Positions 71 through 21,863 of a DNA stretch of 25,550 bases are shown in pieces (within the stretch, counting starts at the first letter, position 1; each line of letters opens with the position of its first letter). The DNA is from a virus, in the IMG/VR virus record IMGVR_UViG_3300042506_000051, positions 1-25,550 of that record; one strand, given 5' to 3'. The notes under the pieces are model-generated. The model ran no database searches, was not told the origin of the DNA, and saw nothing but the letters and a program-made list of their open reading frames with translations. The position numbers and the translations under genes are program-made.

Positions 71-742
71 ATGATAAAACTTGATATTGATAAAACGGTT
101 CCGTACCCTAAAAGTACCGAATCAGACAAAGCAGCGACCTTGCGTGAAGACATGCAATTGGCCGCCAACACAGCCGCCGTCTTAAAAGGACTGGGCGCTG
201 ATATTGAAGACTCCCCGATTGCACAAGAAGAGGCTGACGAAGTATTTGCTCAGTTTTCGGAAATTGCAAAGAAACAGTTTGAAGACGCAATGTCTGACAA
301 ACCCAAACGGGGCAGGCCACGCACGCGGCCCGACACTCCAGCGCTACTGGAGAAGGTGCCAGTCGCCCAGCGCATTAGTACAATGTTGCGCGAATACAAC
401 AACCCAATAGTTGCAGACGCAGCTGAGCTGCGCTTAGTTGTAACCAACAAGCTTTTGTATCTTGCCGATTGCGGCGACCCCCGCATTGAAATAAAAGCTA
501 CGGAGATGCTGGGCAAGATTAGCGACGTGGGCCTGTTCACTGAGAAAACTGAGATCACCGTGACGTACAACAACATCTCAGACATTGACGAGGCCATTAA
601 AGACAAAATTCGCAAGATGATGAAGTTGAATGCAATTGATGTGCCCTCGGTAGACTTGGACATGCGTAAAGAATTTGAGGACCCCGAGGTGGTTGAGGAC
701 GTAACGCCTAAAGAGCCGCCCGAGGAAGAAGAGAATGTCTGA
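71..742 (+). CDS. probable terminase small subunit
   Basis: A 223-aa protein whose stop overlaps the start of the large terminase gene, the usual place for the small subunit, which recognises phage DNA and loads it onto the packaging motor. Residues 79-86 (KRGRPRTR) form an AT-hook-like motif that could bind the minor groove of AT-rich DNA. It is followed by a helical segment (about 95-155) ending in a stretch, GLFTEKTEITV, that resembles the end of other small terminases. The C-terminus (200-223) is strongly acidic and may contact the large subunit. The ATG at 71 is chosen because no in-frame start lies upstream, although its ribosome site is poor. The function rests mainly on gene order; a classical N-terminal helix-turn-helix is not obvious. 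Confidence 0.65.
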   Translation: MIKLDIDKTVPYPKSTESDKAATLREDMQLAANTAAVLKGLGADIEDSPIAQEEADEVFAQFSEIAKKQFEDAMSDKPKRGRPRTRPDTPALLEKVPVAQRISTMLREYNNPIVADAAELRLVVTNKLLYLADCGDPRIEIKATEMLGKISDVGLFTEKTEITVTYNNISDIDEAIKDKIRKMMKLNAIDVPSVDLDMRKEFEDPEVVEDVTPKEPPEEEENV

Positions 743-2261
743 CGAGTTGGAAAAACTAGACCCGGAGCTCAAGGCGCTGCTGGCTAATCTTCACCTGTTA
801 ACAGAGAATCAGAAAAATGTTATTCTCGCGGACCTCTCCCACAAAGAGATCATGCTGGAGAAGCAGTTAGCCAGAGATACTTTCTTGGGGTTTGTGAATA
901 AGTGCTGGCCAACCTTCATTTCGGGCAGGCATCACAAGATTATGGCCAAGGCGTTTGAAAGAGTGGCCAACGGAGAGTGCAAAAGACTGATTATTAACAT
1001 GCCACCCCGCCATACGAAGTCAGAATTTGCTTCCTACCTCCTACCAGCGTGGTTTTTAGGTAAATACCCTAGCAAAAAGATCATTCAGAGCTCAAATACA
1101 GGCGAATTAGCGGTCGGATTTGGCCGAAAAGTGCGAAATCTGGTCGATTCTGACGTTTATAAAGCAATTTTTCCTGATTTTGAGCTCCAACAGGACTCAA
1201 AAGCCGCTGGAAGGTGGAATACCAACAAAGGCGGCGACTATTTTGCGATTGGTGTGGGCGGTACGGTGACCGGTAAAGGTGCCGATATCCTGATTATTGA
1301 TGACCCGCACTCGGAGCAAGAAGCAGCAATGGCTGCAAGTAACCCAGATGTGTACGATAAAGTAACCGAGTGGTATACGTCTGGTCCGCGCCAGCGACTT
1401 CAGCCGGGCGGGTCGATCGTAGTCGTGATGACTCGTTGGGCGCAGCGGGATTTAACGGGCCAAGTACTTAAAGCTGCTGCTGCCCGTGGGGGAGAGCAGT
1501 GGGAAGTCATTGAGTTTCCCGCCATCATGCCTAGTGGTAAACCCCTATGGCCAGAGTTTTGGTCTTTGGAGGAGTTGGAAGCCCTGCGGCAAGAATTGCC
1601 TAATAGTAAGTGGCAAGCACAGTACCAGCAGAACCCCGTGGGTAATGAGAGTGCGATCATTAAGCGGGACTGGTGGAAATGGTGGGAACTTGAAAGACCA
1701 CCGGCATGTGATTATATTTTGCAGTCATGGGACACAGCGTTTGAAAAGTCCAATCGTGCTGACTATTCAGTGGGCATGACGTGGGGGGTTTTCTACAACG
1801 ACGAAGACTACAGCTTGCCAAACATCATTTTGCTCAATGTGTACAGGAAACGCGTAGAGTGGGTGCAGCTCAAGAAGGATGTGTTTGAAGAATACAACGA
1901 GTGGGAGCCGGACGGTGTAATCATTGAGAAGAAAGCCACCGGCGCACCGCTTATCTATGAGTTAAGAGCGATGGGTATTCCAGTTCAGGAATACACGCCG
2001 AGCAGGGGTCAAGACAAAATTGCCCGTTTGAACTCGGTCTCGGACATAATTGCGTCAGGGAAAGTATGGGTTCCCCGTACCTCTTGGGCGGAAGAAGCAG
2101 TTGATGAGATTGCCGCATTTCCGTCTGGCGAGCACGACGACTTGGTGGACGCGACCACTCTTGCACTGATGCGGTTCAGGCAGGGGGGTTTTCTTCGCTT
2201 GCCTTCCGACGAACCGGAAGAACAAAAGTTTTTTAAACGCCGTAATGCGGTGTTCTATTGA
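735..2261 (+). CDS. terL: terminase large subunit (packaging ATPase and nuclease)
   Basis: This 508-aa protein is the motor that pumps DNA into the procapsid and cuts the concatemer. The N-terminal ATPase carries a Walker A-like PPRHTKS (90-96), a Walker B ILIIDD (185-190) and a coupling-type VVVMTRW (229-235). The C-terminal RNase H-fold nuclease shows its acidic residues in order: D333 in SWDTA, E398 in IIEKK, and D468/D469 in HDDLVD. The length is normal for T4 gp17/P22 gp2-type terminases and both domains look intact. Translation starts at the ATG at 735, eight bases inside the preceding gene, behind GAGGAA at 722-727. This is one of the surest calls in the window. Confidence 0.96.
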   Translation: MSDELEKLDPELKALLANLHLLTENQKNVILADLSHKEIMLEKQLARDTFLGFVNKCWPTFISGRHHKIMAKAFERVANGECKRLIINMPPRHTKSEFASYLLPAWFLGKYPSKKIIQSSNTGELAVGFGRKVRNLVDSDVYKAIFPDFELQQDSKAAGRWNTNKGGDYFAIGVGGTVTGKGADILIIDDPHSEQEAAMAASNPDVYDKVTEWYTSGPRQRLQPGGSIVVVMTRWAQRDLTGQVLKAAAARGGEQWEVIEFPAIMPSGKPLWPEFWSLEELEALRQELPNSKWQAQYQQNPVGNESAIIKRDWWKWWELERPPACDYILQSWDTAFEKSNRADYSVGMTWGVFYNDEDYSLPNIILLNVYRKRVEWVQLKKDVFEEYNEWEPDGVIIEKKATGAPLIYELRAMGIPVQEYTPSRGQDKIARLNSVSDIIASGKVWVPRTSWAEEAVDEIAAFPSGEHDDLVDATTLALMRFRQGGFLRLPSDEPEEQKFFKRRNAVFY

Positions 2262-2270
2262 GGATGATAT

Positions 2271-4721
2271 ATGGCTACTAATATTGATAAAGCTCTGTAT
2301 TCTTTGATTCCCGGAATGGATGATCAAAGTATGGTTCCAGAAGACGCAATTGAGATTGAGGTCGAGGACCCAGAATCTATGAGTATTAGCATGGGCGGTA
2401 TAGAAATTGACCTATCGCCTGAAAGCAAAAAAGCAAGTGAAAAGTTTGATGCCAACCTTGCAGAAGATATGGACGAGGGTGAGCTGGGTAAGCTTGCGTC
2501 TGAGTTGATGGGATTAGTGGATGCGGATATTGCCAGTCGCAAAGATTGGACAGATGCGTACGTTAAAGGTCTTGAAGTTTTGGGGATGAAATATGAAGAG
2601 AGAACTGAGCCGTGGAACGGCGCTTGTGGAGTGTTTTCTACTGTACTCACGGAAGCGGCAATTAGGTTTCAGAGTGAGACTATCACGGAAACGTTCCCAG
2701 CTGCGGGGCCTGTTAAAACAGAAATTATTGGGGCCATTGATCGTCTTAAAGAGGAGGCTGCGGAGCGCGTAAAAGATGATATGAATTACCGCTTGACTGA
2801 GGAGATGCCTGAGTATCGTCCCGAGCATGAGCGCATGTTGTTTAACCTAGGTCTCGCGGGCGCGGCCTTCAAGAAAGTTTATTACGATCCGGGCCTTAAA
2901 AGGCAGACCGCGATCTTCTTGCCCGCTGAAGATGTGATCATCCCTTATGGGTCGTCGGGCGCACGTACCGCTGAGCGCGTCACACACTTAATGCGTAAGA
3001 CGAAAAACGACATTAAGAAGCTACAAGTTGCAGGTTTCTACCGTGATGTTGACATGGGTGATCCGGTTAGTATTTATAACGATGTTGAGAAGAAAAAAGC
3101 CGAAGAGCAGGGCTACTCCATAACAGACGATGACCGCTATCAATTAGCGGAAATTCAAGTAGATTATGTGATGCCGGGTGATGAGACCGAAGACGAGATT
3201 GCAGTTCCTTACATTATTACCATTGATCGCGGAACAGACGAAGTTCTTGCCATTTACAGAAACTGGAATGAAGATGACTCAACATATGCGAAGCGTCAGC
3301 ACTTGGTTCAGTACGACTATATCCCGGGCTTTGGTGCTTATGGTATGGGTCTTATCCATATCATCGGCGGCTATGCTCGCGCTGGCACTTCTCTTATTAG
3401 GCAACTCGTTGACGCGGGTACTCTAGCTAATCTGCCGGGTGGCTTGAAGTCTCGGGGTCTGCGTGTTAAGGGTGACGATACACCGATTGCACCGGGCGAG
3501 TTCCGCGACGTAGATATCCCAAGCGGGTCTATCAAAGACAACATCATGACGCTCCCGTACAAGGAGCCGTCGCAGGTGTTGCTGGCGCTATTGAATCAGA
3601 TTACTGAAGAAGGTAGACGACTTGGTTCTATTGCTGACATGAAGATGTCGGACATGAGCGCGCAGGCTCCCGTGGGTACAACACTTGCGCTGCTTGAGAG
3701 ACAACTCAAGATCATGGGTGCTGTTCAAGCCCGCGTGCACAACTCGATGAAAGAGGAGTTCAAACTTCTCAAGAGCATCATCAGAGACAACATGCCCGAG
3801 GACTACGACTACGAGCCCGCTGGTGGAGATCGCACAGCCAAGCGCGAAGACTACGACATCGTTGAAGTGATACCGGTCAGTGATCCCAACAGCTCAACAA
3901 TGGCTCAGCGCATCATGCAGTATCAGGCTGTGATGCAGCTTGCGCAGCAGGCTCCGCAAATTTACAACTTGCCTGTTTTACATAGACAGATGATTGAGGT
4001 GCTGGGTGTAAAGAACGCCGATAAGCTCGTGCCGGTTGATGATGATCAGAAGCCCAGAGACCCGATTAGCGAGAACATGGCGTTCCTCAATGGTGAGCCA
4101 ACAAAGGCGTTCATCTACCAAGATCACGATGCGCACATTGCGGTGCACTCGACGTTCATGCAGGACCCCATGATTGCACAGCAGATGGGGCAGAACCCCA
4201 TGGCGCAGCAGATGATGGGCGCAATTCAAGCGCATATTGCAGAGCACTTAGCGTTCCTGTATCGCAAGAAAATTGAAGAGCAGTTAGGTGTAGCACTGCC
4301 CGCTCCGAACGAAGAGTTGCCTGAAGAGACTGAAGTGCAGTTGTCTCAACTTGTTGCGCAAGCGTCCGCTCAGCTCTTGCAGCAGAACATGTCTATGGCT
4401 CAGCAGCAGAAAGCCCAACAGTTGCAGCAAGACCCGCTGATTCAGATGCAGCAAGCGGAGCTCCAGATCAAGGCGCAAGATGCTCAGACTCGTGCGCAGA
4501 AAACTCAGGCCGATATTCAGTTGGCGCAAGAGAAACTCAAACTGGATGCACAGCGCATGCAGATCGATATGCAGAAGGAACAACAGCGTGTAGCCTCGCA
4601 AGAACGTCAGAGCACGGAACGGGTATCTGCACAGGATCGTCAGGTTGCGCATAAGCTCAAGGTTGACCTCGTCAAAACCATGAACAAACCAACATCTACA
4701 CCGAAAGGGCCGGTAAGGTAA
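2271..4721 (+). CDS. portal protein, P22-like, with long C-terminal helical tail
   Basis: An 816-aa protein directly after the large terminase. It would form the dodecameric ring through which DNA enters and leaves the head and on which the terminase and adaptors dock. The length is close to the P22 portal class (about 725 aa) plus an extension. The first ~80 residues are acidic. The middle contains the mixed alpha/beta core (EPWNGACGVFSTVLTEAA and onward). From about residue 690 the protein is a long Gln/Ala/Lys-rich coiled coil, which corresponds to the helical barrel of P22-type portals. GAGGAT (2260-2265) precedes the ATG, overlapping the terL stop. Assignment rests on size, position and core sequence; no single catalytic motif exists for portals. 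Confidence 0.9.
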   Translation: MATNIDKALYSLIPGMDDQSMVPEDAIEIEVEDPESMSISMGGIEIDLSPESKKASEKFDANLAEDMDEGELGKLASELMGLVDADIASRKDWTDAYVKGLEVLGMKYEERTEPWNGACGVFSTVLTEAAIRFQSETITETFPAAGPVKTEIIGAIDRLKEEAAERVKDDMNYRLTEEMPEYRPEHERMLFNLGLAGAAFKKVYYDPGLKRQTAIFLPAEDVIIPYGSSGARTAERVTHLMRKTKNDIKKLQVAGFYRDVDMGDPVSIYNDVEKKKAEEQGYSITDDDRYQLAEIQVDYVMPGDETEDEIAVPYIITIDRGTDEVLAIYRNWNEDDSTYAKRQHLVQYDYIPGFGAYGMGLIHIIGGYARAGTSLIRQLVDAGTLANLPGGLKSRGLRVKGDDTPIAPGEFRDVDIPSGSIKDNIMTLPYKEPSQVLLALLNQITEEGRRLGSIADMKMSDMSAQAPVGTTLALLERQLKIMGAVQARVHNSMKEEFKLLKSIIRDNMPEDYDYEPAGGDRTAKREDYDIVEVIPVSDPNSSTMAQRIMQYQAVMQLAQQAPQIYNLPVLHRQMIEVLGVKNADKLVPVDDDQKPRDPISENMAFLNGEPTKAFIYQDHDAHIAVHSTFMQDPMIAQQMGQNPMAQQMMGAIQAHIAEHLAFLYRKKIEEQLGVALPAPNEELPEETEVQLSQLVAQASAQLLQQNMSMAQQQKAQQLQQDPLIQMQQAELQIKAQDAQTRAQKTQADIQLAQEKLKLDAQRMQIDMQKEQQRVASQERQSTERVSAQDRQVAHKLKVDLVKTMNKPTSTPKGPVR

Positions 4722-5240
4722 ATGATCACTATATTTAGCCCCGAGGAACGCGCTTCGCTTACCGCAGCGTTTGATGCTGTAGAAGATAAGAACGAAGAGA
4801 AAGAAGTTTTCTACAAGAATAGCAAGGGAGTTTATAACTTACCTGCTTCGTTGGCGTACGTTGATCGCATAACCAAACGGATTCAACAGCGTTACCCCGG
4901 CGCTAAGTTTGATAGTACTTACGCACGCGTGTACACGCGGGGCAGTTACCTTGGCATTCATACAGATCGTCGGGGTTTAGACGTTACGTTAAGTGTATGT
5001 CTCGAAGATAGAAACAACCTTGAGTGGCCGCTGTTTATTAGTACAAGCACGATAGATGGTGAGGAGTGGGATCATCACGCAGACCATACGCGGTTTAAGA
5101 AAGAGTTTCTTGGCGTAGTGTGCCCGCCGGGGCAGGGGGCGATGATGGAGGGGCGCAAACACCCTCATTGGCGGGATGAGCTGCTCTGCGGAGAAGCGCA
5201 AAGAGCAGTGTATGTGTTCTATCACTGGAGCTTAACATGA
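4722..5240 (+). CDS. 2OG-Fe(II) dioxygenase, prolyl-hydroxylase-like
   Basis: A 172-aa protein of the 2-oxoglutarate/Fe(II)-dependent oxygenase fold, starting immediately after the portal stop. The metal ligands are visible: H80-x-D82 in GIHTDRRG and a distal His, most likely H147 in GRKHPHWRD. R161 (AQRAVYVFYHW) is the likely 2-oxoglutarate anchor. Spacing and the terminal YVFYHW strand fit the P4H/SM-20-like group. Known family members hydroxylate protein prolines or other side chains, and some act on nucleic acids; this substrate is unknown. Sitting inside the head-assembly operon suggests co-expression with virion proteins, hence possibly a virion or host-protein target, but that is inference. 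All catalytic residues look present. Confidence 0.8.
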   Translation: MITIFSPEERASLTAAFDAVEDKNEEKEVFYKNSKGVYNLPASLAYVDRITKRIQQRYPGAKFDSTYARVYTRGSYLGIHTDRRGLDVTLSVCLEDRNNLEWPLFISTSTIDGEEWDHHADHTRFKKEFLGVVCPPGQGAMMEGRKHPHWRDELLCGEAQRAVYVFYHWSLT

Positions 5241-5428
5241 CAGAAGCAGAAATACTCAAGCGACAAAACGACGAGTTTCGCCAGCAGGCGATTAACAAAC
5301 TGATATCCGGGGCAGTTAAAGACTATCCTGAATACAGAGAATTGGTTGGTGTTATTAGGGGTCTTGACCATGCCAATTACAACCTTCAAGACCTCAAACA
5401 ACGTATGGAAAGATTAAATGATGAGTGA
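5237..5428 (+). CDS. small hypothetical protein
   Basis: A 63-aa protein starting in a 4-base ATGA overlap with the oxygenase gene, with GGAG at 5227-5230 as ribosome site. The sequence is charged and predicted helical throughout, with no cysteines, membrane segment or recognisable motif. The first half (EILKRQNDEFRQQAINKLIS) and the last 20 residues are amphipathic and could form a short coiled coil. It lies between an oxygenase and a co-chaperonin in the head operon and overlaps the next gene by 11 bases, so translational coupling is likely. A minor assembly factor is possible, but I do not recognise the family. Confidence 0.6.
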   Translation: MTEAEILKRQNDEFRQQAINKLISGAVKDYPEYRELVGVIRGLDHANYNLQDLKQRMERLNDE

Positions 5429-5825
5429 AATCCTAGTAAGCCAAGACGGTGCCACAGCCACTGTACTTCCCGCGACGGCTGAAGAGAAAGCAAAACAGGT
5501 TCCTGATCCTGTTACTTTTCACATTCTTTGTATGCTCCCTAAAGCAGCAGAAGAATTTACCGAAACCGGTATTCTTAAGTCAGCAACTGCCATGTATCAC
5601 GAGGAGCTCCTCTCCCCTGTGTTATTCGTTGCAAAGCTTGGACCCGACTCGTTTAAAGATGAAAAGCGTTTTCCTTCTGGACCTTCATGCCAAGTTGGGG
5701 ATTTCATTATCACCCGCCCAAATACTGGTACCCGTATGAAAATACACGGTACAGAATGGCGTTTGATTAGTGACGACTCGATTGAAGCTGTTGTGCAAGA
5801 CCCTCGCGGTATTCAACGTCCATAA
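5418..5825 (+). CDS. GroES-like co-chaperonin
   Basis: A 135-aa protein whose C-terminal ~100 residues follow the GroES (Cpn10) pattern. An opening strand (VTFHILCMLP) leads to a loop with TETGILKS (48-55), in the place of the GroES mobile loop GGIVL. Then come a strand like GEVLAVG (SPVLFVAKLG, 66-75), VGDFIITR (93-100) matching the GroES VGDIVIF, NTGTRMKIHGTEW (102-114), and a final ISDDSIEAVV (117-126) matching MSESDILAIV. Phage co-chaperonins such as T4 gp31 replace host GroES so that GroEL can fold the capsid protein. Its place just before the scaffold and capsid genes fits that role. An extra ~30-residue N-terminal segment is of unknown purpose. Alternative start: the second ATG three bases later. 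Confidence 0.75.
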   Translation: MMSEILVSQDGATATVLPATAEEKAKQVPDPVTFHILCMLPKAAEEFTETGILKSATAMYHEELLSPVLFVAKLGPDSFKDEKRFPSGPSCQVGDFIITRPNTGTRMKIHGTEWRLISDDSIEAVVQDPRGIQRP

Positions 5826-5834
5826 GGAAAAATC

Positions 5835-6800
5835 ATGGCCACATTTGAAAAAACTGAGTTTACATTCCCAGATGAGAAGGAAGAGGCTGAGAAAAATGCA
5901 AATCAGCTTCTAAAAGACGACGATATCGAGATTGAAATTGTCGACAACACGCCTCCGTCAGACCGCAATCGCGCTCCCCTAGATACTCCCCCCGAGGAGG
6001 TTACAGACGAGGAACTTGATAAATACACTGATGTCAAGCTCAAAGAACGTCTAGCCAAACTGGGTAAGGGGTATCACGACGAACGCCGCGCCAAAGAAGC
6101 CGCCTTCCGGGAAAAGGAAGAGGCTATCCGCATGACGCAGTCGGTTGTTGAGGAGAACAAGAAGCTAAAAGGTTCGCTAAACACGAACCAAGAAGTTCTC
6201 TTAGAACAGGCTAAAAAAGTTGTAGCCAATGACCTCGACAAAGCCAAGATTAAATACAAGGCGGCGTATGAGTCAGGAGACTCCGAAGCCATGGTTGAGG
6301 CGCAGGAAGAGCTAACCGTAGCCCGGATGAAAGTCGAGCGCGTAAATAGTTTTAAGCCTACCCCTTTACAAGAGGAAAAAAATGAGGTACAAAACACACA
6401 ATTCACGCAAGCACCCCCTGTGGACCGCAAAGCCGAGGCTTGGAAAGATTCCAATCCGTGGTTTGGCAAAGATAGGGAAATGACCGGTTATGCGTTTGCG
6501 TTGCATGAAAAACTGGTCGTAGAGGATGGCATTGATCCTAGTTCGGATGAGTATTACCGGAAACTCAACGGACGGATTCGCCAAGTGTTTCCAGAGAAGT
6601 TTAACTCTGGGGACTCCGCTGATGCACAAACATCTCAGCGCTCAAGTAAATCAAACGTAGTTGCACCTGCGACGAGAAGTACTGCACCACGAAAAATCGT
6701 ACTTTCACCGGACCAAGTGCGCATGGCAAATAGGCTTGGAGTCCCATTAAAACTCTATGCCGAGAAAGTTGCTGAACAAGAGAGGAATAAAAATGGCTGA
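5835..6800 (+). CDS. probable capsid scaffolding protein
   Basis: A 321-aa, highly charged protein with AAGGAAA as ribosome site just before the ATG. The first ~65 residues are acidic; residues ~75-190 are rich in Lys/Glu with heptad-like spacing and should form a coiled coil. The centre is Gln/Pro-rich. The last ~35 residues are basic and amphipathic (LSPDQVRMANRLGVPLKLYA), like the C-terminal capsid-binding helices of phage scaffolds. Position between portal/co-chaperonin and major capsid genes is where P22-type phages keep the scaffold, which templates the procapsid and then leaves. Sequence identity to a named scaffold cannot be shown here, so the call rests on composition, architecture and order. 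Confidence 0.72.
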   Translation: MATFEKTEFTFPDEKEEAEKNANQLLKDDDIEIEIVDNTPPSDRNRAPLDTPPEEVTDEELDKYTDVKLKERLAKLGKGYHDERRAKEAAFREKEEAIRMTQSVVEENKKLKGSLNTNQEVLLEQAKKVVANDLDKAKIKYKAAYESGDSEAMVEAQEELTVARMKVERVNSFKPTPLQEEKNEVQNTQFTQAPPVDRKAEAWKDSNPWFGKDREMTGYAFALHEKLVVEDGIDPSSDEYYRKLNGRIRQVFPEKFNSGDSADAQTSQRSSKSNVVAPATRSTAPRKIVLSPDQVRMANRLGVPLKLYAEKVAEQERNKNG

Positions 6801-7260
6801 ACAAAATCGAATGAACCGCGCTTTAGAGACTCGTGAAAAAGAAGCAAGACCCGTTGCAAAGTGGGCTCCTGCCGAATTACTCCCGCACGTTGATGAAGAA
6901 CCCGGTTATGCAATGAGATGGATTCGCACCAGTATGGGTGGTGTAGGTGACGCCAAAAATATTTCTGCAAAACTCCGCGAAGGATGGGAGCCCGTAAAGG
7001 CTTCACAACACCCTGAAGCGCAAACTTATATCGATCCTAATTCTCGATTTAAAGATGCGATTGAAATTGGTGGACTTATTCTTTGCAAAACACCGGCTGA
7101 GTTTATTGACCAACGCGCTGCGTACTACCGTAATTTGGCTGAATCGCAGATGCAATCAGTAGACAACAGCTTCATGCGCGAAAACGACGCCCGGATGCCC
7201 CTGTTTAGCGATAAACGCACGACAGTGACTAAAGGTGCCGGTTTCGGTTCTGGATCTTAA
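6793..7260 (+). CDS. hypothetical head-region protein
   Basis: A 155-aa protein between the scaffold and capsid genes. I start it at the ATG at 6793, preceded by AGAGGAAT (6781-6788), rather than at an in-frame ATG 36 bases upstream that lacks a ribosome site and lies deeper inside the scaffold gene. The N-terminus is basic and Arg-rich (MAEQNRMNRALETREKEAR). The middle has WIRTSMGGVGDAKNI and a globular stretch around IEIGGLILCKTPAEF. The C-terminus is disordered-looking and Gly/Ser-rich. Similar proteins occur at this position in environmental phages, but I know no assigned function. A minor head or capsid-maturation role is possible from location alone. Confidence 0.65.
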   Translation: MAEQNRMNRALETREKEARPVAKWAPAELLPHVDEEPGYAMRWIRTSMGGVGDAKNISAKLREGWEPVKASQHPEAQTYIDPNSRFKDAIEIGGLILCKTPAEFIDQRAAYYRNLAESQMQSVDNSFMRENDARMPLFSDKRTTVTKGAGFGSGS

Positions 7261-7276: not shown

Positions 7277-7879
7277 ATGGCACTAACAGCAGCACCCTAT
7301 GGGCTACGTCCCATCAATCGTATCGACGGCATGCCCTATGCTGGCGCTACGAGTCAGTTCTTGATTGACCCCGCTGGCGAAGGTACTAACTTGTTTTATG
7401 GACAAGTTGTTATCATCGGCGCTGACGGTTATATCGCTCTGTCTACCGCTACCGGCGCAGACATCACTACCAATAACCTTGGTGGTGCTAACGTAGGTGC
7501 AATCGGCGTTTTCGTCGGCGCATCCTATATCAACGCACAAGGTCAGCAGATTTACGGTCAGTACTACCCCTCCGGCACAACCGGCGTGGTGACTGCATAC
7601 GTGATCACTGACCCTAACGTTACTTTCCAAGCACAGCTAGATGGTTCTGGCGCTCAATCAGTTTTGGGCAGCAACACCTTCTTTGCCGCTGTACAGAGCA
7701 CTAGCACTGGTTCAACCCAGACTGGTAACTCGACCAGTGCTTTGGAGTCAACCGTGGTTCAAACTGCTGCGGCCTTCCGTATTGTGGGCTTTGCCTCCAC
7801 TCCGGGCGATGCGTTTACTGATGTGTTGGTTAAGTTCAACCCCAGTGCTCATTCGTACATGAACAACGTTGGCCTGTAA
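7277..7879 (+). CDS. probable head structural or decoration protein
   Basis: A 200-aa protein beginning MALTAAPYGLRPINRIDG, preceded by TTAGGAG, directly upstream of the capsid gene. Composition is that of a beta-rich virion protein: abundant Gly, Thr, Ser, Ala and Val, almost no charge in the middle, and no cysteines. The PYGLRPINRIDGMPYAGAT opening recurs in small structural proteins next to capsid genes in aquatic phages. A decoration protein stabilising the expanded shell is the most natural reading, as many phages place it beside the capsid gene, but no family-specific residue proves it. A minor tail or spike protein is the alternative. Confidence 0.6.
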   Translation: MALTAAPYGLRPINRIDGMPYAGATSQFLIDPAGEGTNLFYGQVVIIGADGYIALSTATGADITTNNLGGANVGAIGVFVGASYINAQGQQIYGQYYPSGTTGVVTAYVITDPNVTFQAQLDGSGAQSVLGSNTFFAAVQSTSTGSTQTGNSTSALESTVVQTAAAFRIVGFASTPGDAFTDVLVKFNPSAHSYMNNVGL

Positions 7880-7892
7880 GGAGTAAATTACC

Positions 7893-8801
7893 ATGGCAAT
7901 TTCACGCGCACAACTACTTAAAGAACTTCTTCCCGGCTTAAACGCTTTGTTTGGTCTGGAGTACGCTAAATATGGTGAGGAACATAAAGAAATTTATGAA
8001 ACCGAATCTTCTGAGCGTTCTTTTGAAGAAGAGACAAAACTGTCTGGCTTCGGTCAAGCACCAGTCAAAAATGAAGGCTCAGCCATCAACTATGACAATG
8101 CACAAGAAGCATGGACCGCACGTTATACACACGAAACAATCGCGATGGGATTCTCCATCACTGAAGAAGCCGTGGAAGATAACTTGTATGACTCTTTGTC
8201 TTCGCGCTATACCAAGGCTTTGGCCCGCGGTATGGCTTACACCAAGCAGGTTAAAGCCGCTTATGTGTTGAACAACGCCTTCACTGGCGGCCCAACATAT
8301 GGCGACGGCGTGGTGCTTTGCTCCACTGCTCACCCGCTGGTATCAGGTGGTACCAACAGCAACACTCCTTCCACTGCTGCTGACTTGAATGAAACATCGT
8401 TGGAAAACGCTGTTATTCAAATCGCTGCTTGGACAGACGAGCGTGGTTTGTTGATTGCTGCTAAGCCTAGGAAACTAGTCATCCCACCCTCACTGCAATT
8501 CGTTGCTACTCGTCTGTTAGAAACCGAACTCCGCGTCGGTACTGCTGACAACGATATCAATGCGTTGAAGAACAATGGCTCGATCGCTGAAGGTTACTGC
8601 GTTAACCACTATTTGACCGACACCAATGCATGGTTCTTGACTACAGATGTACCTAACGGCCTGAAGCACTTTGTTCGTTCACCCTTGTCTAACAGCATGG
8701 ACGGCGACTTTGACACAGGTAACGTTCGCTATAAAGCTCGTGAGCGTTATAGCTTTGGCGTGTCTGACCCCTTGGGTATCTTCGGTTCACCCGGAGCTTA
8801 A
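7893..8801 (+). CDS. major capsid protein, Mu gpT-like
   Basis: A 302-aa protein with a strong ribosome site (AAGGAG) before the ATG. Length and sequence fit the Mu-like major head subunit gpT family of HK97-fold capsid proteins. The N-terminal arm contains an acidic helix (YETESSERSFEEETKLSG). A following region (YTHETIAMGFSITEEAVEDN) and the later KPRKLVIPPSLQFVATRLL segment are typical of that family. It is followed by a strong terminator, consistent with being the most abundant late product. Folding probably depends on GroEL together with the phage GroES-like protein encoded upstream, and assembly on the scaffold gene; both are inferences from order. Confidence 0.9.
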   Translation: MAISRAQLLKELLPGLNALFGLEYAKYGEEHKEIYETESSERSFEEETKLSGFGQAPVKNEGSAINYDNAQEAWTARYTHETIAMGFSITEEAVEDNLYDSLSSRYTKALARGMAYTKQVKAAYVLNNAFTGGPTYGDGVVLCSTAHPLVSGGTNSNTPSTAADLNETSLENAVIQIAAWTDERGLLIAAKPRKLVIPPSLQFVATRLLETELRVGTADNDINALKNNGSIAEGYCVNHYLTDTNAWFLTTDVPNGLKHFVRSPLSNSMDGDFDTGNVRYKARERYSFGVSDPLGIFGSPGA

Positions 8802-10294: not shown

Positions 10295-10530
10295 ATATAA
10301 ACACCGTTTGGCTATCCTCAATATCACTGTTAATTGCAGTGTTAGCGTATATAGCCAATGAAAAGTTCAGAGAACTGGCTCGTGTCACGATCCTGTTAAA
10401 CAAAACACGCGAGGAGGTTGCCCGTGATAACGTTACTCAAGCAGAAATTGACAGAATTACTAACCACATTGACCAACGCTTTAACAAGCTTGAAGCAAAA
10501 ATTGACCAGCTTCTTCAAGCGGGGAAATGA
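10282..10530 (+). CDS. small membrane protein with coiled-coil tail
   Basis: An 82-aa protein with one clear hydrophobic segment at about 9-25 (VWLSSISLLIAVLAYIA), then a charged helical tail with heptad-like spacing (IDRITNHIDQRFNKLEAKID). It overlaps the previous gene by 13 bases and the next by 4. A single N-terminal membrane span followed by a cytoplasmic coiled coil is seen in several small phage proteins, including some holin-associated or ejection-related ones, but nothing here singles out a role. It is far from the lysis genes at the other end of the window, so I do not call it a holin. Confidence 0.6.
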   Translation: MELLDINTVWLSSISLLIAVLAYIANEKFRELARVTILLNKTREEVARDNVTQAEIDRITNHIDQRFNKLEAKIDQLLQAGK

Positions 10531-10856
10531 TGCCGAGCACAAGTAAGAAGCAACATAATTTCATGGCAGCGGTGGCTAACAACCCAGCGTTTGCTAAGAA
10601 AGCAGGCGTCCCACAGTCTGTGGGTAAAGATTTTAACAATGCCGATAAAGGCAAAACTTTTAAACAAGGTGGCGATATGAAAAAGATGAATATGGGTGGA
10701 TATTCCAGCGGCGGCGCGGCTAAAACCAAAAAAATGGCTGGTGGCGGTATGACATCAATGGGCAAAGTAAAAACTGGCAAAACACCAGACGGTGTTGCTG
10801 TTAAAGGCAAAACCAAAGGCAAAATGATCACCATGAAAAATGGCGGCAAGTGTTAA
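10527..10856 (+). CDS. small basic protein with SKKQ-type N-terminus and C-terminal KGKTKG tag
   Basis: A 109-aa protein with pI clearly basic. The N-terminal half (SKKQHNFMAAVANNPAFAKK, then GVPQSVGKDF) resembles short phage proteins with an SK-Q-FM motif, distantly like DUF3008. The second half is Gly/Lys/Met-rich and low in complexity. It ends ADG-like (TPDGVAVKGKTKGKM) followed by MKNGGKC. That tail recurs in two neighbouring genes, at 10871 and 11544, so the module seems shared. A terminal cysteine is unusual. The start ATG overlaps the preceding stop; a second ATG follows immediately. Role unknown, possibly virion-associated. Confidence 0.65.
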   Translation: MMPSTSKKQHNFMAAVANNPAFAKKAGVPQSVGKDFNNADKGKTFKQGGDMKKMNMGGYSSGGAAKTKKMAGGGMTSMGKVKTGKTPDGVAVKGKTKGKMITMKNGGKC

Positions 10857-10870
10857 TTTAAGGGGCTATC

Positions 10871-11533
10871 ATGGCTATTAAAACTGGTGAAGACACAGAA
10901 CCGCTAGCAGACCCTGAAGATAAAAGGTCGTTTTTTGACCGTTTAAAATCTGATGTGTCTAGGATAACAGCGGGGAACATTGACGACCCAAAGTCTGAGG
11001 CGTATAAAAAATATGGCGCTGGGGCAAATCAACTAACACCACGCAAAGTAAGTATTGGCGATGCGGAGTATGAAGATAACAGGCTTAAAAAACGCGCGAT
11101 GGAACGAAGCCGCGTAATGCAGCAAGATATTTCGGCGGGGACTGATTTTATTGATAGACCTCAAGATGAAGGTTACAGACCTTATATTTCACCAAGAGAT
11201 CGTGCTGTAGCAGAAGGTGAAAAAGACGCAGGTAAGATTATTGAGAATACCGGCCCTAGAAAAAAACCTGTTGCGGAAAAGCCACGCATTGTTTCTAAGA
11301 AAGAATTGGAAGATTCTGGCTTTGATAACTTACGTGATTATTTAAACGACCAGAAAGGCTTGCGCCGCAAACCTTCTGACAAACACGCCGAAGCGCGTAA
11401 GAATCTTAGTTCCGGTAAGAAAAACATTGACGAAGGCGGTAAGCCTTACCGTTCCGGCGGTTCAGTTTCTTCCGCTTCTAAACGTGCTGATGGCATCGCC
11501 CAACGCGGTAAAACCCGCGGCAGAATGTACTAA
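10871..11533 (+). CDS. basic low-complexity protein with C-terminal RADG/GKTRG tag
   Basis: A 220-aa hydrophilic protein preceded by AAGGGG. It is rich in Lys, Arg, Asp and Glu throughout, with no hydrophobic core longer than a few residues, so it is probably extended or helical rather than globular. A segment YRPYISPRDRAVAEGEKDAG and a later SGFDNLRDYLNDQKGLRRKP are the only ordered-looking parts. It ends GGSVSSASKRADGIAQRGKT, then RGRMY, matching the tag of the adjacent small basic proteins. No known domain recognised. An internal head protein that travels with the DNA is a possibility from charge and place only. Confidence 0.6.
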   Translation: MAIKTGEDTEPLADPEDKRSFFDRLKSDVSRITAGNIDDPKSEAYKKYGAGANQLTPRKVSIGDAEYEDNRLKKRAMERSRVMQQDISAGTDFIDRPQDEGYRPYISPRDRAVAEGEKDAGKIIENTGPRKKPVAEKPRIVSKKELEDSGFDNLRDYLNDQKGLRRKPSDKHAEARKNLSSGKKNIDEGGKPYRSGGSVSSASKRADGIAQRGKTRGRMY

Positions 11534-11543
11534 GGAGAATTTT

Positions 11544-11798
11544 ATGAGCCCAGCAGAAAAAGCAGCACGGGAAGAAATGGCCGACCGTAAGATGAATACG
11601 GCCACTGAAAAGGCTTACTCTAAGTCTTTGACCAACACCGAATACGCGCCTGAAAAGAAAGACCCACGCGACGCTGTTCGCGGCCAGCGTGGTTATGCTA
11701 AAGGTGGTATGACGGCTTCTAGCCGCGCTGATGGTTGCTGTACTAAAGGCAAGACCAAGGGCACTATGGTTACGATGAAATCTGGCGGGATGTGCTGA
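11544..11798 (+). CDS. small basic protein with C-terminal RADG/KGKTKG tag
   Basis: An 84-aa protein. The start ATG at 11544 has AAGGAG (11532-11537) overlapping the previous stop; a longer reading from 11427 has no such site and lies inside the upstream gene. The N-terminal half is charged and helical (PAEKAAREEMADRKMNTATE). Then come YAKGGMTASSRADGCCTKGK, TKGTMVTM and a final KSGGMC. The last ~25 residues align closely with the tail of the protein at 10527, although the codons differ, implying selection on the peptide. Three cysteines are all in the tail. Function unknown. Confidence 0.65.
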   Translation: MSPAEKAAREEMADRKMNTATEKAYSKSLTNTEYAPEKKDPRDAVRGQRGYAKGGMTASSRADGCCTKGKTKGTMVTMKSGGMC

Positions 11799-13826: not shown

Positions 13827-14495
13827 ATGGCAATGACTTACGCTCAACTTGTAGCTGCGGTAACGGATTACACGCAGAACACGTTTGAAACGACCTCAAT
13901 CAATGTAATGATTAAGCAGGCGGAGCAACGCATCTATAACACGGTGCAGATTGCCAACTTGCGTAAGAACGTGACGGGCGTATTAGCTACGGGTAATAAG
14001 TACTTGGCCTGTCCAGAAGACTTTTTGTCAACGTATAGCCTTGCCGTGTATCCAGCCGCAGGCACGGGTGACTACCTTTACCTGCTTAACAAGGATGTGA
14101 ACTTCATGCGTGATGCATATCCTAACCCTGCAACTACGGGAAAGCCTAAGCATTACGCCATCTTTGGCCCACAGTCAGCCAACGTCAATGAGTTGTCGTT
14201 CATCCTTGGCCCAACGCCAGATGCCAACTACAACGCAGAACTGCACTACTTCTATATCCCCGAGTCTATTGTCACTGCTAATACGTCATGGTTAGGCGAC
14301 AATTTTGATTCAGCTTTGTTATATGGAACGTTAAGCGAAGCGGGTACGTACATGAAAAGCGCCCCCGAAGATGGTATGTACAAGCTCTATCAGGAACGTT
14401 ATGTACAAGCAATTGCTTTGCTTAAAAACCTCGGCGACGGAAAACAGCGCGCTGACGCATACCGCGACGGTCAAATACGAGTGGCGGTGTCTTGA
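13827..14495 (+). CDS. adaptor-like connector protein (SU10-adaptor type candidate)
   Basis: A 222-aa protein. The ATG at 13827 is preferred over an in-frame ATG at 13800, which lies inside the previous gene. It begins MAMTYAQLVAAVTDYTQNTF and goes on to INVMIKQAEQRIYNTVQIAN, a helical start typical of connector proteins that bind portal rings (phage SU10 adaptor, T7 gp11-like). The middle is beta-rich with PEDFLSTYSLAVYP, KPKHYAIFGP and FILGPTP. The C-terminus is helical (MYKLYQERYVQAIALLKNLG). Likely part of the neck. Assignment to that family is from pattern memory and order, not alignment. Confidence 0.65.
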   Translation: MAMTYAQLVAAVTDYTQNTFETTSINVMIKQAEQRIYNTVQIANLRKNVTGVLATGNKYLACPEDFLSTYSLAVYPAAGTGDYLYLLNKDVNFMRDAYPNPATTGKPKHYAIFGPQSANVNELSFILGPTPDANYNAELHYFYIPESIVTANTSWLGDNFDSALLYGTLSEAGTYMKSAPEDGMYKLYQERYVQAIALLKNLGDGKQRADAYRDGQIRVAVS

Positions 14496-14496
14496 T

Positions 14497-15003
14497 ATGA
14501 AACAGTGCAGCGCCTGCAAACAAGAAAAATCTTTAGTTGAGTTTCATAAAGATGCGTCTAAAAAAGACGGCTGCACAAGTACCTGCAAGGTATGCGCTAT
14601 TGCAAGAACCAAACAATACTACGCTCAGAACAAAGATGCGGTAGTTGCCCGCGCTAATGAGTGGGTCGCCAACAATCGTGATAAGCACAATAAGAAATGC
14701 AATGCTTGGGCTAAGCGCAACAAAGCGTCTGTCAATGCGAGGACTGCTAGACGGTACGCATCCAAAACACAAGCTACACCAAGTTTTGTAACGCATAATC
14801 CTGATCTGTTGTGGATGATCCAAGAAGCGTATGACCTTGCACAGTTGCGTACAAAGATGTTTGATACTCCTTGGGAAGTTGACCACATCATCCCATTGCG
14901 CGGTAAAAAAGCATCTGGTTTGCATACGCCTTGGAATTTGCGAGTAATACCTATGAGTGAAAACAGACGCAAGTCAAACATCATGGCTGGGGAATTCGCA
15001 TGA
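14497..15003 (+). CDS. free-standing HNH endonuclease
   Basis: A 168-aa protein starting one base after the preceding stop. The N-terminus has paired cysteines, CSAC (C4, C7) and C30/C33 in CKVC, forming a likely zinc site. The centre is Lys/Arg-rich and helical and could contact DNA. The C-terminal HNH core is WEVDHIIPL (D129, H130), then GLHTPWNL (H143, N147) and SENRRKSN (N156, N161). HNH enzymes nick or cut DNA; free-standing ones in phages are often homing endonucleases. It ends in an ATGA overlap with the next gene, so if it is a mobile insertion it has become well fitted to the operon. A packaging-associated role is less likely, as it is far from terL. Confidence 0.85.
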   Translation: MKQCSACKQEKSLVEFHKDASKKDGCTSTCKVCAIARTKQYYAQNKDAVVARANEWVANNRDKHNKKCNAWAKRNKASVNARTARRYASKTQATPSFVTHNPDLLWMIQEAYDLAQLRTKMFDTPWEVDHIIPLRGKKASGLHTPWNLRVIPMSENRRKSNIMAGEFA

Positions 15004-18062: not shown

Positions 18063-18917
18063 ATGTCTCTTAGTAAAGTTGGCGGGATTCTCTCAGCCGG
18101 TTTAAACGGCATTAACTACCCTGTCACAGCGGTGGAGTACCTTGTCGTGGCTGGCGGGGGTGGTGGCGGAGGTTGTTCATTAACTGCAAATGGCGCTGGT
18201 GGCGCTGGTGCTGGTGGCCTTTTAACGGCTACTGGTTACGCTGTAACTATTGGTTCAAGTATTACTGTTACTGTTGGTGCAGGCGGTGCTGGGGGTTCTA
18301 CTAGCCCGACTGCTGGCGCACAAGGCACAAATTCTGTATTTGGTTCAATAACTTCTACAGGTGGCGGTTTTGGCGGTGGAAATACGGCTGGCGGCAATGG
18401 TGGTTCTGGCGGCGGTGCGGCATTAAGCACACCCGGTACTGGCACAGCAGGCCAAGGAAAAAATGGCGGTAGTGCTGGTGGTGGGCCAAATTATGGTGGC
18501 GGTGCTGGTGGTGGTTCTGGCTCTGATGGTGTTAATGGGAGCCTTACAAACGGCGGTGTAGGTGGAACTGGCACAGTTTCATCTATTTCTGGGAGTCAAA
18601 TCCAATACGCTGGCGGTGGTGGCGGTGGTACTTATGCAGGCGGCACTGTTGGTTTAGGTGTTGCTGGCGGTGGTAATGCAGGGAAATCAACTGGCGGTTC
18701 AGCATTTAGTGGTTTAGCCAATACTGGCGGTGGTGGAGGTGGTGCTTCTAGCGGTTCGGCTGTAGGTGCTGGCGGCGCAGGCGGCTCTGGCATCGTAATC
18801 TTACGCTACCCATCTTACTTAGCCCCTGCTACATCAACAACAGGATCACCAGAAACTTATGTGTCTGGAAACTATCGTGTGTACAAATTCATAGCCAGCG
18901 GCACAATTACATTCTGA
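18063..18917 (+). CDS. glycine-rich fibre-tip protein A (one module)
   Basis: A 284-aa protein with GGAGG (18053-18057) as ribosome site. After a 23-residue leader (MSLSKVGGILSAGLNGINYP) comes one glycine-rich module, from VEYLVVAGGGG to GSGIVILRYP, in which runs of Gly alternate with short strands such as ITVTVGAGG, NSVFGSITSTGGG and IQYAGGGGG. It ends with a 34-residue tail, TSTTGSPETYVSGNYRVYKF and ASGTITF. Such glycine-rich domains can form polyglycine-II helix bundles in phage adhesins such as the S16 gp38 tip. A receptor-binding role is likely. Leader and tail match protein C at 20566. Confidence 0.75.
   Translation: MSLSKVGGILSAGLNGINYPVTAVEYLVVAGGGGGGGCSLTANGAGGAGAGGLLTATGYAVTIGSSITVTVGAGGAGGSTSPTAGAQGTNSVFGSITSTGGGFGGGNTAGGNGGSGGGAALSTPGTGTAGQGKNGGSAGGGPNYGGGAGGGSGSDGVNGSLTNGGVGGTGTVSSISGSQIQYAGGGGGGTYAGGTVGLGVAGGGNAGKSTGGSAFSGLANTGGGGGGASSGSAVGAGGAGGSGIVILRYPSYLAPATSTTGSPETYVSGNYRVYKFIASGTITF
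18132..18812 (+). repeat. glycine-rich module 1 of 6
   Basis: The single module of protein A, from VEYLVVAGG to VILRYP. Shares with the other five modules the order: opening strand, Gly run, TVTVGAGG-type strand, NSVF-SITSTGGG, a long variable Gly-rich middle, YAGGGGG, NTGGGGG, and closing GSGIVI. Confidence 0.75.
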
Positions 18918-18923
18918 GGATAT

Positions 18924-20564
18924 ATGGCACAAGGAATCTTCACACTCAGACAAGTTAACCAAGCCATTCGTCAAGGCGCATGGTCAGCATTTAATCCACC
19001 TCAATTTGTAGAGTACCTTTGTGTTGCTGGCGGGGGTGGTGGCGGTGGTTCTTATGAAGGCGGCGGAGGTGGTGCGGGTGGTTTGTTAACAGGTATGGTT
19101 CCTGTTACGGTTGGCGCTTCTTACACGGTTACTGTGGGTGGTGGTGGAACAGGCGGGGCCGCACACTCAACTAGTGTTACTGTTACTAACGGTTCAAATT
19201 CTGTTTTTGGTTCTATTACAACTACAGGCGGTGGAAGAGGTGGTTCAGCAGAGCCAGCAACTCCACTAACTGTATTAAACGGCGGTAATGGTGGCTCTGG
19301 CGGTGGTGGCTCAAGATGGGGAATTTATGGCTTTGGTATACCCGGTGAAAGTGTTGCTGGGCAAGGAAATTATGGTGGTCGGTCTGAGAGCAATTCTGGT
19401 GCAACTGGAGGTGGTGGTGGTGCAGGAACTGTTGGTTTAAATGGGATTGCAGATTCAGTAGCTGGTAATGGTGGTGCTGGTATTGCTTCAGCTATTTCAG
19501 GAACAGTTACCGCATACGCTGGTGGCGGTGCTGGCGACAGTGGTGGCACAAGAGGAGTTGGTGGTGTCGGAGGTGGTGGTAATTATGAAACAGCAGGCAC
19601 AGCAAACACGGGCGGTGGCGGTGGAGGCTCAAGAGCTAGTGGCAGTGGTGGCGCAGGCGGTTCAGGCATCGTAATAGTCAGATACCCCGGCTCTGTGCAG
19701 TTTTACACTGGTGGGACTGTAGTAGCAATTAACGGCTATGTTGTTCATACATTTACTGCATCAGGTACTTTAGCGCCTACAACTCCTATTGCAACGCCGC
19801 AAACGGTGGTGTTTTATTCTTCTGGCACATGGACTGCTCCCGTTGGTGCAACACAAGTTCAATATCTTGTGGTCGCTGGCGGTGGCGGGGCTGGTTCTGG
19901 TGCGGCATCGGGTGGTGGTGCAGGTGGATTCCGTACAGCCACAGGACTTGCAGTTACTGCTGGAACAACCTATGCCGTGACTGTAGGTGCTGGTGGTAAT
20001 GGTTGTGTTGGAGATAACGAAGGTTCAACAAACGGTGGTGATTCCATATTTAGCACCATTACTTCTACAGGTGGCGGAAGAGGTAGGTCTAATAATGCAG
20101 GGGCCGCTGGCACAGGTGGTTCAGGCGGTGGTGGAACAACTAACTTCTGGGCTGGCGGGGCTGGCAATACACCATCAACATCACCTAGCCAAGGCAATAA
20201 TGGTGGCGCAGGTGCTGCTTCTTATGCTGGTGGAGGAGGTGGTGCAGGCGCTGTAGGAGCCGCTGCAACTAGTTCGTCTGGTGGTAATGGTGGCGCTGGA
20301 ACAGCATCAACTATTCTTGGCCCTTCTATCACCTATGCTGGTGGTGGGGGTGGAGGCACATTCCAAACTGCGGCAAACCAACAAGGAAGCGGCGGCGCAG
20401 GCGGCGGCGGTAGTGCTGGATTAAGTGGCACTTCGGGAGTCGGTAGTTCTGGAGTATCAGGCGCTTCGAACACAGGTGGCGGTGGCGGCGGTTGTTCGTT
20501 TATCAGTGATTATTTTAATGGCGGCAAGGGCGGCTCTGGCATCGTGATTATTAAATGGAGTTGA
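18924..20564 (+). CDS. glycine-rich fibre-tip protein B (two modules)
   Basis: A 546-aa protein starting behind GAGGA that overlaps the stop of protein A. The leader is MAQGIFTLRQVNQAIRQGAW. Module 1 runs from VEYLCVAGG to IVIVRYPGS. A linker, FYTGGTVVAINGYVVHTFTA, then SGTWTAPVGATQVQYLVVAG, opens module 2, which ends GGSGIVIIKWS at the stop. Both modules follow the Gly-run and short-strand pattern of protein A. The last codons (TGG AGT) also supply the GGAG ribosome site (20557-20560) for protein C. Leader, linker and end match protein E at 21864. Probable receptor-binding adhesin. Confidence 0.75.
   Translation: MAQGIFTLRQVNQAIRQGAWSAFNPPQFVEYLCVAGGGGGGGSYEGGGGGAGGLLTGMVPVTVGASYTVTVGGGGTGGAAHSTSVTVTNGSNSVFGSITTTGGGRGGSAEPATPLTVLNGGNGGSGGGGSRWGIYGFGIPGESVAGQGNYGGRSESNSGATGGGGGAGTVGLNGIADSVAGNGGAGIASAISGTVTAYAGGGAGDSGGTRGVGGVGGGGNYETAGTANTGGGGGGSRASGSGGAGGSGIVIVRYPGSVQFYTGGTVVAINGYVVHTFTASGTLAPTTPIATPQTVVFYSSGTWTAPVGATQVQYLVVAGGGGAGSGAASGGGAGGFRTATGLAVTAGTTYAVTVGAGGNGCVGDNEGSTNGGDSIFSTITSTGGGRGRSNNAGAAGTGGSGGGGTTNFWAGGAGNTPSTSPSQGNNGGAGAASYAGGGGGAGAVGAAATSSSGGNGGAGTASTILGPSITYAGGGGGGTFQTAANQQGSGGAGGGGSAGLSGTSGVGSSGVSGASNTGGGGGGCSFISDYFNGGKGGSGIVIIKWS
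19008..19690 (+). repeat. glycine-rich module 2 of 6
   Basis: First module of protein B, from FVEYLCVAGG to VIVRYPG. Differs from module 1 mostly in the central Gly loops. Confidence 0.75.
19857..20561 (+). repeat. glycine-rich module 3 of 6
   Basis: Second module of protein B, opening VQYLVVAGGG and closing SGIVIIKWS. The VQYLVV/IIKWS version is found only here and in module 6. Confidence 0.75.
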
Positions 20565-20565
20565 A

Positions 20566-21486
20566 ATGAGTCAAACTTTATTAGGTGGATTCCTTTCCGC
20601 AACCTTTAACCCACTGTCTGGTGCGCCTACGACTGTTGAATATCTAGTGGTTGCTGGTGGGGGTGGGGGTGGCTCTTGTAATGAAACGCCTTCTGGTGCA
20701 GGGGGCGGTGCTGGAGGTCTTTTGACTGCGGCTGGCTTTGCTGTGGCAACTGGCTCTGCATTAACTATTACCGTAGGCGCTGGAGGTAATGGCGGTGCGG
20801 TTGGTAAAAACAACGGAAGCAGTGGTTCAAACTCAGTTTTTTCTTCCATTACTTCAACTGGCGGTGGTGGCGGTTCAGCATTTGATAGCACTGGTAGTAG
20901 TAGCGGTGCTTCAGGTGGCTCTGGCGGTGGCGGAGTGTATTCAGCAGGTAACGGAGGTGCTGGAACTTCGGGTCAAGGATTTGCTGGCGGTGCTGGGGGT
21001 TCTGGCGGTCAAGGTGGCGGAGGTGGTGGTGGTTCTGGCTCTGCTGGCACATCACCAGCGGTTTCTTCACTTCCTTTTGGCGGCAATGGTGGTACTGGAA
21101 CTTGCTCTACGATTACTGGGGCAAGAGTTTTTTATGCTGGCGGCGGTGGAGCAGGTGGCCCAAATCCTAGCGGTACTGCCTTTCCTCCCGGACTAGGATG
21201 TGCTGGCGGAGGCGATGGGGGCATTGCTTACCCAACTGTAGCTTCTGCACAGCCCGGTTATCCTGCTGTAGCAAATACAGGTTCTGGTGGCGGTGGTGGT
21301 GGCTCTAACCGTGCTGGTAGTCCAGCCGCTGGTGTTGCTGGTGGCAATGGCGCTTCTGGCATCGTTATTGTCCGTTACCCCTCATCTCTCTTACCACCCA
21401 CTTCCACAACAGGAAGCCCTCAGATAAACTACTCTGATGGGTATCAGATTTATACTTTCACATCTTCTGGCACTATCACTTTTTAA
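20566..21486 (+). CDS. glycine-rich fibre-tip protein C (one module)
   Basis: A 306-aa protein with a short leader, MSQTLLGGFLSATFNPLSGA, one glycine-rich module (VEYLVVAGG to GIVIVRYPSS) and the tail TSTTGSPQINYSDGYQIYTF then SSGTITF. The same three-part plan as protein A, with related leader and tail but divergent Gly-loop sequences; it carries three cysteines (residues 38, 180 and 213) in its loops. Divergence limited to the loops is what one expects of receptor-contact surfaces under selection, though I cannot measure it here. It lies two bases after protein B. Confidence 0.75.
   Translation: MSQTLLGGFLSATFNPLSGAPTTVEYLVVAGGGGGGSCNETPSGAGGGAGGLLTAAGFAVATGSALTITVGAGGNGGAVGKNNGSSGSNSVFSSITSTGGGGGSAFDSTGSSSGASGGSGGGGVYSAGNGGAGTSGQGFAGGAGGSGGQGGGGGGGSGSAGTSPAVSSLPFGGNGGTGTCSTITGARVFYAGGGGAGGPNPSGTAFPPGLGCAGGGDGGIAYPTVASAQPGYPAVANTGSGGGGGGSNRAGSPAAGVAGGNGASGIVIVRYPSSLLPPTSTTGSPQINYSDGYQIYTFTSSGTITF
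20635..21381 (+). repeat. glycine-rich module 4 of 6
   Basis: The single module of protein C, from VEYLVVAGG to VIVRYP, flanked by the same type of leader and tail as module 1. Confidence 0.75.
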
Positions 21487-21495
21487 GGAGCAAAC

Positions 21496-21852: not shown

Positions 21853-21863
21853 TAGGAATAATC

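Follow-up and report, generated by a model that had tools for sequence, protein, structure and literature searches.

Phage co-chaperonins and the T4 precedent

Co-chaperonins encoded by phages are usually explained by the case of T4, in which a bigger cage is provided for a big capsid protein. The T4 capsid protein needs its co-chaperonin, gp31, and the size of gp23, at about 56 kDa, makes a bigger cage useful. The mobile loop of gp31 is longer (22 versus 16), its roof is missing, and the resulting cage is 8% larger (PMC6318259). GroES genes have been recorded in several other phage groups. Co-chaperonin GroES is among the 13 core genes of 82 HTVC023P-type genomes (PMC9599517), GroES is named in the CRP-901-type phages (PMC10149686), it is reported from siphovirus B8b with a suggested role in capsid or tail (PMC4294664), and it is listed in viral genomic islands (PMC6487183). 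Viral GroEL is the subject of a further paper (PMC8390657).

Identity of the GroES-type gene

The DNA analyzed here, called the window throughout, is a virus record of 25,550 bases. Its GroES-type gene (5418..5825, plus strand) was identified by ORF calling, Pfam, PHROG, a family profile, hhalign, and a predicted model and encodes a protein of 135 amino acids. This ORF overlaps the preceding 63-amino-acid ORF (5237..5428, plus strand, from the ORF list) by 11 bases, and many relatives begin at its second Met codon, at 5421. A small ORF in the place of the preceding one is also found in several named relatives. The gene is under purifying selection, with a pN/pS of 0.14 across 49 close sequences, a ratio that is relative only since pS is near saturation.

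Cpn10 is the best Pfam match of the window protein alone (E 0.006, 17.0 bits), although this falls below the curated cut-off of 21.1 bits for PF00166, while its PHROG match is phrog_3188, co-chaperonin GroES (9.5e-6). Nine matches were found by tblastn among 50,697 phage records. All nine carry a GroES annotation, with identities of 22 to 44%. A relative is encoded in 539 of 558 pattern-matched stretches of IMG/VR, and searches there with two named relatives as queries gave at least 600 matches each, so the family is large. Closed ORFs of more than 90 amino acids were obtained from 298 of 310 loci, and 225 of these were distinct. Our alignment A2 consists of the window protein and 45 of 69 chosen representatives. 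It omits locus L310, a plainer GroES, which is also outside the anatomy counts (224 sequences) and is counted as a miss in every tally of GroES-started loci below.

All 46 members of A2 matched PF00166 at E 0.1 or better. The A2 profile retrieved Cpn10 chains from the Protein Data Bank starting at 4.9e-11, with Thermus GroES (7e-11) and E. coli GroES (0.0011) among the solved structures, and gp31 was absent from the matches of this search. By hhalign, the family profile aligned with six cellular GroES proteins at 98.4% (8.2e-15), while comparison with 14 gp31 proteins detected no sequence relation (2.9%, E 0.016); GroES against gp31 gave 5.2%. The HMM search that the original prediction had put forward as a check bore it out for the family as a whole, but not for the window protein taken alone, which is below the cut-off, nor for a relation to gp31.

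An AlphaFold model of the window protein has a mean pLDDT of 79, with values of 95 (residues 31-40), 88-97 (residues 71-130), 64-77 (mobile-loop segment), and 47-78 (N-terminal 30 residues). Cpn10 chains ranked first in a Foldseek search with this model (3.8e-6), and the top match in a viral library was a GroES from an uncultured virus (4.7e-11). VIA-align placed GroES chains at up to Z 9.7 (3.0 A over 92 residues), gp31 at Z 8.1 and 7.8, and the first unrelated fold at Z 6.5. The comparison of a predicted structure with GroES, also envisaged beforehand, thus returned a Cpn10 barrel. Judged from profiles and model together, the ORF encodes a real Cpn10/GroES co-chaperonin, and Pfam and PHROG matches, profile, hhalign, and model all agree with the earlier proposal of a Cpn10-fold co-chaperonin encoded by a phage within its capsid operon.

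Anatomy of the co-chaperonin

We compared the protein with E. coli GroES and T4 gp31 by counting residues between four anchors: a hydrophobic residue of strand 1, the glycine of the loop, the one following strand 2, and the one in the VGD motif. The anchors were chosen by hand, and the placement of gaps in the hhalign alignments agrees with them. The predicted order of Cpn10 motifs, with a mobile-loop equivalent and VGDFIITR, was confirmed, the glycine-hydrophobic motif being ETGILKS at residues 49-55. In front of strand 1 the window protein has 35 residues versus 9 in E. coli GroES, and the roughly 30 extra N-terminal residues claimed at the outset come to about 26. This N-terminal extension (residues 1-30, 5418..5507, plus strand) is not present in cellular GroES, is the least constrained part of the protein, and is modeled with low confidence.

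The stretch running from strand 1 to the glycine that follows strand 2 counts 38 residues in the window protein (14, the loop glycine, and 23), 33 in E. coli GroES (13, glycine, 19), and 38 in gp31 (17, glycine, 20). The mobile-loop segment itself was placed at residues 43-67 (5544..5618, plus strand) by hhalign and anchor counts. The roof segment, from the glycine after strand 2 to the VGD glycine, is 18 residues long in the window protein, 17 in E. coli GroES, and 10 in gp31; by the same two approaches, it corresponds to residues 76-93 (5643..5696, plus strand). A longer insertion before VGD, which had been part of the first description, was rejected on these counts: that segment exceeds its GroES counterpart by a single residue, and it is the mobile-loop segment that is lengthened (38 versus 33).

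The 23-residue stretch after the loop glycine has the same length in all 224 distinct sequences, the window included, and the glycine itself, followed by hydrophobic residues, is present in 221 of them. In the window, Gly51 and the following Ile-Leu-Lys (5568..5579, plus strand) form a loop with a glycine and two hydrophobic residues and then a lysine at the third place, where GroES has leucine. This lysine is found in 75/75 sequences that share at least 48% identity with the window, while the third place is Leu, Ile, Phe, or Met in 142/143 sequences below 38% identity. Three close relatives (L039, L040, and L047) are without the loop glycine, GTN or GTD replacing ETG, and some GroES of the Alcaligenes-phage group (within L370-L418) have an insert before the loop glycine or no clear hydrophobic triplet. 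At the foot of the roof loop, Cys91 (5688-5690) is kept in 222/224 sequences. A cysteine at the aligned place also occurs in T4 gp31.

The protein ends in a tail, DPRGIQRP (residues 128-135, 5799..5822, plus strand), that lies beyond the end of GroES. Among the 49 sequences of the close clade, pN/pS was 0.28 for the N-terminal tail, 0.11 for the loop segment, 0.09 for the barrel, and 0.012 for the last eight residues, values that rank the regions relative to one another; the lowest of them makes DPRGIQRP the most constrained part of the protein in this clade.

The capsid operon

The genes around GroES, all on the plus strand, begin with a terminase large subunit (735..2261, phrog_38, 4.6e-110) and a portal protein (2271..4721, phrog_1216, 1.5e-23). 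Between the portal gene and the GroES cassette lies a 172-amino-acid ORF (4722-5240) that matches PHROG families labeled ferrochelatase (5.9e-15). In Pfam, the same ORF matches 2OG-Fe(II) oxygenases below threshold (E 0.035), and the ferrochelatase label may be wrong. GroES is followed by a 321-amino-acid protein (5835..6800) matching phrog_28737, a family of unknown function, which from its place and composition is possibly the scaffold. Next are two conserved cassette proteins, of 155 amino acids (6793..7260, phrog_36003, present in 261/263 loci) and 200 amino acids (7277..7879, present in 227/228 loci), and then the gpT-like major capsid protein of 32.9 kDa (7893..8801). Its Pfam matches, to Phage_capsid_4 (PF25209, 3.1e-14) and Mu gpT (PF10124, 4.5e-7), bear out the original expectation that the co-chaperonin is linked to a capsid protein of the Mu gpT type.

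Other features were noted farther along the window. Three small basic ORFs at 10527-10856, 10871-11533, and 11427-11798 carry similar end motifs (KGKTKGKMITMKNGGKC, RGKTRGRMY, and KGKTKGTMVTMKSGGMC). An Endonuclease VII / HNH-like ORF (14371-15003, phrog_1035, 3.8e-27) overlaps the ORF before it by 125 bases at its listed start and may in truth begin farther downstream. Within 18063-23564 lie four long glycine-rich proteins whose openings are similar (VEYLVVAGGGGGG); they are probably tail or fibre proteins.

With loop, roof, and client candidate in hand, the precedent of gp31 can be weighed. One reading holds that the window protein is a strict functional analogue of gp31, replacing GroES and enlarging the GroEL cage for an oversized capsid protein. 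The length of the mobile-loop segment (38, as in gp31, versus 33 in GroES), the place of the gene in the capsid operon, and the match of the predicted fold to gp31 (Z 8.1 and 7.8) favor this reading. However, the roof loop is kept, at 18 residues versus 10 in gp31, and the capsid protein is only 32.9 kDa, while the cage argument rests on a gp23 of about 56 kDa (PMC6318259); in addition, the seven N-terminal tails might fill the cage rather than enlarge it. With a roof loop present and a capsid protein of 33 kDa, the argument for a bigger cage does not transfer, and we consider strict analogy unlikely. The likeness to gp31 drawn in the original prediction therefore survives in the length of the mobile-loop segment but not in the roof, in sequence (hhalign 2.9%), or in the size of the capsid protein.

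Linkage of GroES with the capsid lineage

Among loci collected by their GroES, a relative of the 321-amino-acid protein comes next in 290 of the 291 with enough flanking sequence, and the capsid protein is present in 167 of 168; these loci were not dereplicated. Such counts are biased by their starting point, and linkage was therefore also counted from the capsid protein. That search yielded 21 named phage records. In 18 of them GroES occupies the same position ahead of the capsid gene, and these 18 are the records whose capsid protein is at least 39.8% identical to that of the window. As a background, E. coli GroES matches 89 of 50,697 phage records, a tblastn count that misses divergent phage GroES. 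For IMG/VR, 59 of 78 capsid-started loci had enough upstream DNA to be counted. GroES is present in 35/35 loci of the Alcaligenes-phage capsid type with more than 3.3 kb upstream, while it is found in the operon in 0/18 and 0/6 loci of the vir526 and MW202601 capsid types, the two most distant ones.

A Cpn10 gene is nevertheless encoded elsewhere in those records of these last two types that are long enough. In a search of whole records, all 14 named records carried Cpn10; MW202604, which has the same length and capsid match as MW202601, was left out. The gene lies two genes before the terminase in vir526 and close to the gene for a single-stranded DNA-binding protein in MW202601, and a Cpn10 elsewhere in the record was also found in their IMG/VR relatives L353, L354, and L421. 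Twelve of 16 IMG/VR records were positive, and of the four misses L386 was positive with a purpose-built profile while the other three are fragments of 22.6 to 35.4 kb. These vir526- and MW202601-type records show that Cpn10 need not stand in the capsid operon. That an archaeal virus had naturally lost its co-chaperonin was considered, as the capsid operons of vir526 and MW202601 have no GroES at the usual place, and was rejected because the whole-record search finds Cpn10 in both. The host of vir526 (L344, L428) is given as Methanomicrobiales, an archaeal order, and this virus combines a related capsid cassette with its own Cpn10 near the terminase.

The phages with Cpn10 outside the capsid operon, together with the many others that carry GroES in other contexts (as in the E. 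coli GroES search above and PMC4294664), could be taken to mean that this is an auxiliary gene for general protein folding in the infected host, with no special link to the capsid. This is very unlikely in our view, given that nearly all loci, and 18/21 of the records found through the capsid protein, preserve the gene order with the capsid cassette.

Six phages present in both searches (MinM2, DSL-LC04, 023Pt_psg01, HTVC023P, HTVC027P, and CRP-902) have capsid proteins 58 to 73% identical to that of the window but GroES only 27 to 44% identical, which means that the lid changes faster than its likely client. It is only suggestive that this faster change would fit adjustment to the GroEL of each host. 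Cpn60 was not found in the 33 records searched (14 named and 19 from IMG/VR), although those from IMG/VR may be fragments, so that it could have been missed. The sole match in GTDB genomes was a contig in an Armatimonadetes bin, evidence too weak to name a host. We found no description of a fixed link between GroES and the window's capsid lineage in the literature searched, a body of work with subscription papers mostly outside it.

Proposed function

Our preferred reading, to which we assign a probability of roughly three in four, is that the protein is a dedicated cap for the host GroEL that serves virion proteins of the operon, most likely the capsid protein. The GroES-type protein would form a heptameric lid, this lid would cap the host's own GroEL through its mobile loop, and capping would lead to efficient folding of late virion proteins made from the same operon, with the gpT-like capsid protein as the most likely client. 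Because the phage brings the lid and not the barrel, we infer that the GroEL of the host must be used. Two points make the capsid protein the best guess for the client: the linkage tracks it across diverse phages, and T4 needs its co-chaperonin for its own capsid protein (PMC6318259). At 32.9 kDa, it does not need a bigger cage.

At the level of sequence, capping would be favored by the loop glycine in 221/224 sequences and by a relative pN/pS of 0.11 in the loop segment, while the sub-cut-off Pfam score of the window protein, the charge in Ile-Leu-Lys, and the three relatives without loop glycine would speak against it. The last two observations fit a GroES derivative that has given up capping GroEL and works instead as an assembly factor specific to the capsid, using its barrel and C-terminal tail. 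The gene is linked to the capsid lineage and not to a chaperonin gene, its tail, missing in GroES, is under the strongest constraint within the close clade (pN/pS 0.012), and part of the Alcaligenes-phage group has altered loops, which also points this way. We nonetheless find it quite improbable, since the loop segment is nearly as constrained as the barrel (0.11 and 0.09) and almost all sequences retain the loop glycine with hydrophobic residues after it.

A bolder variant can be imagined in which the co-chaperonin, retooled from general GroES work, would now be the obligate partner of one capsid family. Its changed loop (Ile-Leu-Lys, five residues longer) would tune or loosen the capping of GroEL, and its C-terminal tail would hand folded capsid protein to the neighboring scaffold or capsid, so that the protein would act as an assembly chaperone for a specific client. 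We offer this as speculation that is unlikely to be right.

For the dedicated cap, a reason other than cage size is needed, since this lineage retains a GroES of its own even with the roof in place and a capsid protein of just 33 kDa. GroES and the capsid protein can be traced together in phages annotated for SAR11, roseobacters, cyanobacteria, Caulobacter, and Alcaligenes. Such phages are well suited to testing what leads a phage to carry a lid. The advance is a moderate one, as phage GroES genes were already known.

Comparison with known co-chaperonins

The window protein has the Cpn10 fold, loop glycine, roof segment, and VGD motif in common with E. coli GroES, from which it differs by 26 additional N-terminal residues, a loop segment longer by five, a C-terminal tail, a lysine in the hydrophobic triplet, and the near-invariant Cys91. 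With T4 gp31 it shares a phage origin, the Cpn10 fold, and a mobile-loop segment of equal length (38), but gp31 is without a roof loop (10 residues) whereas the window protein keeps one (18; GroES 17), and the capsid protein of the window, at 32.9 kDa, is much smaller than T4 gp23 at about 56 kDa (PMC6318259).

The closest described proteins are the GroES of the HTVC023P-type pelagiphages, the CRP-901-type roseophages, Synechococcus phage MinM2, and phage DSL-LC04. They belong to the same family at 22 to 44% identity to the window protein, have the same 23-residue stretch after the loop glycine, and occupy the same place before a putative scaffold and a gpT-like capsid gene. The loop motif sets them apart, being ETGILKS in the window clade and KT[AK]GG[IL]xL in most of the others. 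GroES being a published core gene of the HTVC023P-type phages, the window gene is a further example of a known phage GroES, one whose partnership with a single capsid lineage is unusually strict.
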